A DNA stretch of 39,765 nt, from the NCBI GenBank assembly GCA_025456225.1, contig JALOLB010000017.1:1-39765 (forward strand). The letters run 5' to 3'. The notes under the pieces are model-generated. The model searched no databases. It had not been told where the DNA came from and worked only from the letters and a program-made list of their open reading frames with translations. This document shows positions 7,487 through 33,520 of this stretch, one piece after another. Positions within the stretch are counted from its first letter, which is position 1; each line of letters starts with the position of its first letter. A program made the position numbers and the translations under genes. The stretch is from Thermoanaerobaculaceae bacterium (GTDB lineage Bacteria; Acidobacteriota; Thermoanaerobaculia; Thermoanaerobaculales; Thermoanaerobaculaceae).

Positions 7487-7857
7487 AGGGATCGGACCGC
7501 GGGCCTCCAGGCCCGCTCCTCCGTCTCCCGGAGCGGGGCTGGAGCCCCGCGATCCCTCGGCCGCCCGCGAGTCAGAAACGCTGACGAAGCGAGCGACTGC
7601 GCAGGGATGGGACCGCGGGCCTCCAGGCCCGCTCCCGGATGGGGGACGGGAGGCAGTGGTCCAGTCCCGCCCACCCTGCGGGGCTGGAGCCCCGCGATCC
7701 CTCGGCCGCCCGCGAGTCAGAAACGCTGACGAAGCGAGGGAACGCGCAGGGATGGGACCGCGGGCCTCCAGGCCCGCTCCCGGATGGGGGACGGGAGGCA
7801 GAGGCGAGTCCCGCCCACCCTGCGGGGCTGGAGCCCCGCGATCCCTCGGCCGCCCGG
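7487..7857. repeat. Three palindromic intergenic repeat units (BIME-like)
   Basis: Units begin at 7487, 7603 and 7748, giving 116- and 145-bp spacing. Each opens with AGGGAT, carries the hairpin GCGGGCCTCCAGGCCCGC, then a variable middle, then the hairpin CGGGGCTGGAGCCCCG, and closes with CGATCCCTCGGCCGCCC, the inverse of the opening. Units 1 and 2 are followed by TCAGAAACGCTGACGAAGCG, which unit 3 lacks. The whole unit can fold as one long stem. No transposase is present. Small reading frames through it on both strands are consequences of the repeat, not genes. Confidence 0.9.
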
Positions 7858-13009: not shown

Positions 13010-13014
13010 AGACA

Positions 13015-13183
13015 GGCCTCAGACCTCAGGCCTCAGACCTCAGGAAAGACAGGCCTCAGACCTCAGGCCTCAGGGAAGACAGGCCTCAGGCCTCAGACCT
13101 CAGGAAAGACTGACCTCAGGCCTCAGACCTCAGGCACTGCAAGACAAGACTGAGGGGGGTGGGGGAGCTGAGGCCTGAGGCCG
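13015..13183. repeat. CCTCAGG heptamer array with inverted end
   Basis: Runs of GCCTCAG/ACCTCAG heptamers are separated by 7-nt spacers such as GAAAGAC, then a core (13133-13166, beginning GGCACTGCAAGACAAGAC) and an inverted stretch CTGAGGCCTGAGGC. Much of the array can fold back on itself. The same core in the opposite orientation lies at 16641-16674, so the two copies bracket the four genes between. Confidence 0.9.
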
Positions 13184-24908: not shown

Positions 24909-24933
24909 CCTTCCCATTTCTCCGACAGGCTCC
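24909..24933. mobile_element. Isolated 25-bp terminus of the palindromic element
   Basis: An exact inverse copy (25/25) of the left terminus at 32571-32595, flanked by TA on its outer side. The inner sequence does not match the 274-bp element and no second terminus is near, so this is a truncated or very diverged copy in front of the phosphofructokinase gene. Confidence 0.8.
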
Positions 24934-32196: not shown

Positions 32197-32571
32197 ATGC
32201 GCTGGAGCGTGATGGCGGTGGCACTGGCGGTACTGGCCGGTGGCTGCGCGAGCTCGGGATCGGTGGCGAGCGCGGACGTGGAGATTCGCGCCGGGGTCCG
32301 GGCGGCGACCAGGGAGTACTGGCAGGAGGCTCTCTTCCGCTTCCAGCGGGCACAGCAACTGGAACCGGAGAACTCCAAGGTGCTCAACAACATTGCGGTC
32401 TCGCTGGAGGCCCTGGGCCGCTACGAGGAGGCCCTGGGAATGTACAAGAAGGCCCTGGAGAAGTCCCCATCCAACACTGCCGTCAAGCGCAACTACGCGC
32501 GGTTTGCGGAGTTCTACACCAGCCTCGCGCGGGGGGTGAAGCCGAAGGAGAATGGCCGTGCGAAACCTTAG
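32197..32571 (+). CDS. TPR-repeat lipoprotein
   Basis: 124 residues from ATG 32197, with AAGGGGG 5 nt upstream. The signal peptide ends in a lipobox-like VLAGGC (Cys about residue 17). Residues about 40-105 hold two TPR units (EYWQEALFRFQRAQQLEPEN and NNIAVSLEALGRYEEALGMY), a scaffold for protein contacts in the periplasm. The stop TAG at 32569-32571 lies right at the edge of the inserted element. It stands ahead of the periplasmic protein and the protease-barrel fusion, which suggests an envelope assembly unit. Confidence 0.88.
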   Translation: MRWSVMAVALAVLAGGCASSGSVASADVEIRAGVRAATREYWQEALFRFQRAQQLEPENSKVLNNIAVSLEALGRYEEALGMYKKALEKSPSNTAVKRNYARFAEFYTSLARGVKPKENGRAKP

Positions 32572-33520
32572 GAGCCTGTCGGAGAAATGGGAAGGTCCGC
32601 GCGCAGGGGGCTTGCCGGGTGCAGGCAAGGCGCGTGGAGGCACGCGATGTGGGGCATCGAGGCCGACGAGCAACGCCGCATCCACCCGGCAACCCCCCTG
32701 CGCCCTGCGGGTGACGGGCGGCGTGGGGCCATCTGCGGCGTTGTCGCGCCTCGTCGATGAACCCGCATCGCCTTCGGCGCGACGCCTTGCATCTGGCCCC
32801 ACGGCGCCCGTCACGCGGGCCTTCCGCTTTCTCCGACAGGCTCCCACTGCCGGTCTGTGCGTGCTGCTGGCGGCTGCCGCGGTGCAGGCGGGGACCCGCG
32901 AGGTCGAGCTGTCTCTTCCGGTGCGGTCGAAGCTGCAGATCTCGGGTCACGAGCGGCTGTACATCGGGCCCTTCCTCCGCGAGACCCGGGGCGACGAGGC
33001 ACCGGCCGAGCTGAAGTTCGACGTCGCCCAGGAGTTCGAGCGGTTCCTCCGGAAGATGCTGCGCAAGGAGGGCAAGTTCGTCATCCTGCCGGCCATCGAA
33101 GGGGTGCGGCTGCCCACCACGGACTCCCTGCAGCTTTCCAAGGACACCGAGTTCTGGCGCGACCTCGGGACCCGGGCCGGGGCCGACTACGTGGTGGCCG
33201 GGTCCATCGAGTTCACCGTCCAGGACACCACGCAGCCCAAGATCGAGTCCTACGAGTCCCCGGTCGACGGGCGCACCTACTACCGCCAGGTCATGGTGGA
33301 GCAGACCGGGTTCTCCTACGACATCCTGCTCAATGTCTTCGATGCCCGCACCGGGGCGCTCGTCTTCCAGGAGCCGTTCAAGGACACGCAGGAGCGCGAG
33401 GAGCGCAGCTTCGACGAGTTCACCGGCATGTTCGCCAACCTCTACGCCCTCGAGAACAAGCTGGTGGGGGTGTTCGTGCCGCGCACCGTGAAGACCAAGC
33501 GGTTCCTTTTCCTGCCGTGA
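32552..33520 (+). CDS. Periplasmic protein with its signal-peptide region disrupted by an inserted element
   Basis: 322 codons from ATG 32552, overlapping the TPR gene by 20 nt; GTG 32558 is the better start by spacing to GGAG. The first residues (VRNL) are followed by about 92 residues encoded by the palindromic element, then TAGLCVLLAAAAVQAG and the mature domain (TREVELSLPVRSKLQISGHE). Without the element this would be a normal signal peptide of about 22 residues. The frame is open through the element. The mature part (about 220 residues) is alpha/beta, with ADYVVAGSIEFTVQDT and FSYDILLNVFDARTGALVFQ, reminiscent of CsgG/FlgT-like periplasmic folds; the family is not recognised. Export is doubtful unless translation begins inside the element. 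Confidence 0.75.
   Translation: MAVRNLRSLSEKWEGPRAGGLPGAGKARGGTRCGASRPTSNAASTRQPPCALRVTGGVGPSAALSRLVDEPASPSARRLASGPTAPVTRAFRFLRQAPTAGLCVLLAAAAVQAGTREVELSLPVRSKLQISGHERLYIGPFLRETRGDEAPAELKFDVAQEFERFLRKMLRKEGKFVILPAIEGVRLPTTDSLQLSKDTEFWRDLGTRAGADYVVAGSIEFTVQDTTQPKIESYESPVDGRTYYRQVMVEQTGFSYDILLNVFDARTGALVFQEPFKDTQEREERSFDEFTGMFANLYALENKLVGVFVPRTVKTKRFLFLP
32571..32844. mobile_element. 274-bp MITE-like element with 25-bp terminal inverted repeats
   Basis: The left terminus (32571-32595, beginning GGAGCCTGTCGGAGAAA) and right terminus (32820-32844) are inverse copies with two mismatches. Inside, GGCATCGAGG followed by GCAACGCCGCA has an inverse partner near 32725-32760, so most of the element can fold on itself. 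It has no transposase. TA precedes the left end; CA follows the right end, while the isolated terminus at 24909-24933 is followed by TA. This hints at TA-targeting (IS630/mariner-type) mobilisation in trans, which is inference. Confidence 0.8.

Follow-up and report, generated by a model that had tools for sequence, protein, structure and literature searches.

The window, a stretch of 39,765 nucleotides from a Thermoanaerobaculaceae contig, belongs to a MAG (G000; 4.88 Mb in 450 contigs, 82% complete). At the locus studied here, a TPR gene is followed by an envelope gene and a PD40/Omp85-like gene (Table 1). The envelope protein matches the FlgT middle domain and, weakly, LpoB. Its gene is split by a 274-bp palindromic element that is non-autonomous and carries no transposase, and the reading frame (32552/32558-33520) is open right through it. 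With hyphens marking the element's boundaries, the junction reads CCGTGCGAAACCTTA-GGAGCC...GGCTCC-CACTGCC. The stop of the TPR gene, which the initial annotation had placed at the element's edge, is a TAG at exactly 32569-32571, made up of TA from the flank and the first G of the element.

Table 1. Features of the insertion locus and a related solo repeat, in window coordinates.
Feature	Position	Strand	Remarks
Solo terminal repeat of the window-element family	24909..24933	-	CTAG-flanked
TPR lipoprotein-like gene, 124 aa	32197..32571	+	stop at element edge; 72% identical to G001 homologue
AAGGAG Shine-Dalgarno-like site	32545..32550	+	position conserved relative to old start
Envelope protein gene (FlgT_M / LpoB-like), putative ancestral GTG start 32558	32558..33520	+	split by element
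Left target dinucleotide TA (of TTAG)	32569..32570	.	forms TPR stop TAG with element's first G
Full-length palindromic element, probable IS1182-type MITE	32571..32844	.	inverted repeat, copies, fold; ends as on IS1182 elements
Left terminal inverted repeat (17 bp perfect, 31 bp at 90%)	32571..32601	+	
Left internal palindromic arm	32601..32703	.	stem arms 32601-32626 / 32678-32703
Right internal palindromic arm	32708..32817	.	stem arms 32708-32736 / 32789-32817
Right terminal inverted repeat	32814..32844	-	
Right target dinucleotide copy, now CA	32845..32846	.	one substitution from TA; family consensus CC-TAG
Signal-peptide hydrophobic core LCVLLAAAAVQA	32855..32890	+	now residues ~100-111
Downstream MA-peptidase/PD40/Omp85-like envelope protein gene, 959 aa	33531..36410	+	syntenic in G001

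The inverted repeat is real, as the initial annotation of a palindromic MITE-like element had held, and it belongs to a repeat family with further copies in the genome; the annotated figure of 25 bp for the terminal repeats was approximately right, between a perfect 17-bp and a 31-bp stretch. The outer arms (32571-32611 and 32804-32844) are complementary at 83% over 41 nt. As a single strand, the 274 nucleotides are predicted to fold into a terminal stem and two arms at -205 kcal/mol, versus -138 +/- 5 in shuffled sequences (z = -13). We rejected a known structured RNA as the element's identity, as no Rfam family scored above its gathering score for the element and the only match was to an unrelated tRNA in a flank. 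A plasmid search with the element as query gave no match. G000 contains three full-length copies, the window's included, of which the other two are 96% and 92% identical to it. The genome has about 20 end sites of the family, and forms of 47-50 bp that consist of the terminal stem only account for some of them. One such form, of 49 bp, lies between convergent genes (contig C23, 3033-3081), and its two edges constitute both TAG stops. In the window, the solo repeat lies upstream of a phosphofructokinase-like start, with the remainder of the element unrecognisable. Being short, multi-copy, bounded by terminal inverted repeats, devoid of a transposase and matched by an empty orthologous site, the window element displays the traits of a MITE.

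That empty site emerged from a comparison with a same-genus genome (G001) and with family-level homologues of the envelope gene; the named carriers of this gene are MAGs of Thermoanaerobaculaceae and of other Acidobacteria. On both sides, gene order agrees with that of G001 (DprA, TPR, envelope gene, PD40/Omp85), where the operon is uninterrupted and the empty TTAG site reads GCGATGCGAAGCCTTAGGGTTGCG (MRSLRVAVVLAFVAAAGWATTREV; the site is also given as GATGCGAAGCCTTAGGGTTGCG). In the relatives, the TAG of the TPR frame falls within codons for the signal peptide of the following gene. Such ATG/GTG...TAG overlaps are found in ten further family members, whose signal peptides are short and none of which carries the extension. 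The VRNL start, said in the initial annotation to be split from the signal-peptide core, is homologous to MRSL in G001, and when 276 bp are removed and the flanks joined by script, an ordinary signal peptide results (VRNLTAGLCVLLAAAAVQA-G). Judged by this comparison of sites, GTG 32558, with its conserved AAGGAG, is most likely the true start.

The element's 274 bp and a 2-bp TA duplication (equivalently, 272 and 4 bp) add up to 276 bp, or 92 codons. Because of this net length, and because the element has no stop in the strand and frame concerned, the downstream gene stays open, in agreement with the roughly 92 translated residues first proposed. The TPR protein is likewise unchanged, since the element's first base, a G, rebuilds the TAG stop with the preceding TA. 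The earlier statement that excising 274 bp would fuse the two frames was correct arithmetic (274 mod 3 = 1), but the net insertion, as given by the relatives and the flanks, is 276 bp. The duplication is now imperfect: its right copy reads CA, and the base after it is C in the window and G in the relatives. Because the stop was rebuilt on the left, the right copy would have been free to drift, which may explain its decay.

At most of its ends, the repeat family reads CTA-GGAGCC...GGCTCC-TAG. For CTAG targets, duplications of 2 bp and 4 bp are indistinguishable, and both give a net gain of 276 bp; there are also two-sided copies whose flanks differ (CTA with TAA, ATA with TAG, TTA with TAG), and these appear easier to reconcile with a TA duplication of 2 bp than with one of 4 bp. 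CTAG is strongly depleted in the window (7 sites versus 45 expected). Across 129 kb of G000, 15 sites lie outside element edges, none of them inside predicted genes and five at stops. As CTAG is thus nearly absent inside genes, the element inserts in spacers or at the ends of genes. Seven of 16 element edges make up a gene stop, including those of both convergent genes on contig C23. We rejected an enrichment at stops beyond the placement of CTAG itself (7/16 versus 5/15, Fisher p = 0.72); insertion at stops therefore follows target availability.

The open frame through the element is not remarkable. In a Markov-1 simulation of this composition, such a sequence is open with a probability of about 0.48, so that we rejected an exceptional open frame, and in each of the three full-length G000 copies three of the six frames are open. 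The length plus 2 is a multiple of three for the elements of G000, G198 and G353 (274 bp) and is not in other lineages, whose elements measure 272, 273 or 276 bp. A second in-frame case occurs in G001, where a full-length copy (C142:2298-2571) directly precedes LLAPVLMALSLAAAQPAV, the signal core of an amidase-like gene whose G000 orthologue begins MVVTPLFLALTLAVTQPAV without the element. This copy lies between divergent genes, and the old amidase start codon has apparently been replaced. The window and the G001 amidase gene are the two in-frame cases; of the other full-length copies checked, the majority occupy spacers or gene ends.

The termini of the window element, (C/T)TA-GGAGCCTGTCSGAG...CTCSGACAGGCTCC-TA, point to the transposase type that may have moved it. 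About 15 of the 17 terminal bases are common to the element and to IS1182-family insertion sequences; plasmid elements annotated as ISMno8 and other IS1182 carry CTAGGAGCCTGTCCGAGTAA ends. In the Acidobacteriota genome G356, a 1773-bp insertion sequence is bounded by TTA-GGAGCCTGTCCGAGAA...TTCTCGGACAGCCTCC-TAG, and its transposase matches NF033551 transpos_IS1182 at 6e-124. G356 and G128 also contain separate short elements (about 111-125 bp; 111 bp in G356) with the same GGAGCCTGTCSGAG ends, and several element sizes thus appear to use these ends. An IS1182 with matching ends was not found in G000, which is 82% complete, or in G001, and the IS1182-like gene of G000 (contig C208) has other ends. 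By its termini, the window element would be an IS1182-type MITE that targets CTAG/TTAG, with the partner assigned by type. Other transposases fared less well: we rejected an IS630/Tc1-mariner partner, considered for its TA duplication and CTAG, as PF13358 found no match in genomes in which the element is abundant (G000, G001, G086, G198 and G214), and around its matches in other genomes there were no paired ends of the window-element type. The IS5/DDE_Tnp_1 and DDE_5 transposases of G000 and G001 were rejected too, with no matching ends nearby.

We consider this identity, and the following insertion history, highly probable. The ancestral TTAG, as the comparison with relatives shows, was both the TPR stop and codons 4-5 in the signal peptide of the following gene. 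A non-autonomous palindromic transposon with IS1182-family ends would have inserted there, with its length and the TA duplication together preserving the downstream frame and its first G and the TA restoring the TPR stop. Translation from GTG 32558 would then read through the element, and the predicted product consists of MRNL, 92 hydrophilic residues, the old hydrophobic core and the mature domain. Translation most likely still begins at this GTG, because this codon, its Shine-Dalgarno-like site and the TPR-stop overlap are all located ahead of the element or at its edge. With such a product, export may well be reduced, or the core converted to an internal signal or anchor, rather than export being lost outright. 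The locus illustrates how a CTAG-targeting transposon can enter a gene overlap, restore the stop of the first gene with its own first base and extend the signal peptide of the second without a frameshift.

A real but lesser possibility is a knock-out in progress, in which the hydrophilic N-terminus blocks use of the signal core, the protein is retained in the cytoplasm and decay of the gene is to follow. The 92 hydrophilic residues indeed precede a core of modest hydrophobicity (12-residue Kyte-Doolittle mean 2.57), and the decayed target duplication implies that the insertion is not brand new; yet all 320 codons are open, with no stop or frameshift, and the mature part, 82% identical to that of G001, appears to be under purifying selection (dN 0.11, dS 0.70, dN/dS about 0.16, an average mostly over pre-insertion time). 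We regard as unlikely a new start inside the element, at TTG 32741, GTG 32723 or GTG 32711, which would yield an extended signal peptide of 50-60 residues. The three codons are present in frame, and the G001 copy before the amidase signal core offers in-frame ATGs where the old start is apparently lost, but no Shine-Dalgarno-like sequence precedes any of the three in the window, and upstream the conserved AAGGAG and the GTG have both been kept intact. That an assembler joined unrelated contigs through the repeat is very improbable even for a multi-copy element in a fragmented MAG: the genes on both sides are adjacent and in the same order in G001, the TPR-gene overlap recurs in other relatives, and a false join would have to recreate both synteny and frame. 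A conserved N-terminal domain, which the initial annotation had named as the finding that would count against an insertion and to which the open frame alone could lend itself, can be dismissed with near certainty, as the 92-residue extension is in no family-level homologue, nor in the more distant ones inspected, and the element's DNA is found again at non-coding sites and on either strand.

The inserted IS1182-type element belongs to a family that extends across the phylum. Of 396 Acidobacteriota genomes, 22, from many families, contain its 16-base end motif, at as many as 48 end sites in a single genome. In an alignment of sixteen full-length elements, mean column identity is 81%, and the consensus structure comprises 89 pairs with 96% of cells paired. 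Pairs changed on both sides number 35, versus 19 in shuffles, and the signal is lost when the partners are slid. Replication errors that correct palindromes are another potential source of such covariation, so that it does not prove that the fold is used.

In six genomes of the same order and class (G022, G023, G031, G036, G048 and G050; loci L075-L080 and L290-L309), elements of the same length match the core at about 70-79% and carry other terminal repeats. Besides end type A, that of the window element, we distinguished types B (GTGGCCTGTAACAG), C (GAGGTCCGGCCGG), D (GCAGGCTGCTGAAAAA, with a diverged left arm), E (GTGTTCTGTCCGTGAA), F (GTGTAGTGTTTCGC) and G (GTACAGCTCCCCGGAAA), and the same core at the same length occurs with at least five terminal repeats other than that of the window element; many of these elements adjoin (C/T)TA. 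Between types A and B, the core is 77% identical (78% within A), whereas the outer 20 bases are 52% identical (86% within A). The core and outer bases agree at 71% and 43% between A and C, and at 75% and 43% between E and G. G050 alone has four end types. In a set of 17 elements that covers six end types, compensatory changes occur in 67 of 90 consensus pairs and 96% of cells are paired, a partly circular test in that the 90-pair structure was derived from the same alignment.

We tentatively propose, as a possibility short of the probable, that a folded core of about 200 bp is the heritable unit, with interchangeable terminal repeats and a total length kept at about 272-284 bp, and that this core repeatedly took the ends of different CTAG-targeting insertion sequences. 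Such end swapping onto a conserved core is preferred over a gradual divergence in which the ends changed faster than the core. Two stretches from a phage collection have a GCAGGCTGCTGAAAAA end ahead of a reading frame that begins MRGADGQTAALFSYV, which we take to be a transposase-like start; a plasmid search gave no confirmation of this. In viral contigs, no autonomous partner was recognised for end type B, E or F. If the ends are interchangeable, the element would be a structured parasite that exploits several transposases, and not a deletion derivative of a single insertion sequence, and the fold itself would be selected, not only the transposase-binding ends. The question posed by the wider family is why MITEs with different ends have one covarying core and one length.

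None of the papers found in a literature search describes this element family, which is, as far as could be checked, previously unreported. Its nearest precedent is the Rickettsia palindromic elements, small elements of about 150 bp that lie in frame in protein genes and are recurrently intragenic (PMC10969869). The window element resembles them as an in-frame palindromic insertion that is open in the host frame. By contrast, most copies here lie at gene ends or between genes and their ends are those of IS1182; with two in-frame cases rather than recurrent in-frame insertion, we do not count the family among the Rickettsia elements. Members of the IS1182 family (ISMno8-like, the G356 insertion sequence, ISPse1 and IS1272) share terminal repeats near GGAGCCTGTCCGAGWA and CTAG/TTAG flanks with the window element, which differs in lacking a transposase. 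Some members are reported to target palindromes; for ISPse1 of Paracoccus a 4-nt repeat was reported (PMC3281130), and IS1272 was reported to replace stem-loops without target duplication (PMC5678879), whereas most copies of the present family keep CTA and TAG on the two sides. MITEPsy1 of Pseudomonas syringae, thought to derive from ISPsy2, has CTAG or YTAA targets (PMC3189936); it is likewise a small non-autonomous element with CTAG insertion, but measures 100 bp and has terminal repeats (GGAAGGTCTGAAAAAGCC) unrelated to those of the window element. REP or GTAG-tagged palindromes with RAYT transposases are also multi-copy in bacterial genomes (PMC3733652, PMC2817692); the present family differs in its size (272-276 bp) and in the long terminal inverted repeats that it has in common with a DDE insertion sequence.

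The window contains other repeats as well. At 7533-7856, a 145-bp unit is repeated 2.2 times in tandem at 96%, and arrays of CAGACCTCAGGCCTCAG-type repeats occupy 13013-13134. Similar CCTGAGGCCTGAGG arrays flank the IS1182-like gene on contig C208 of G000 (L118).
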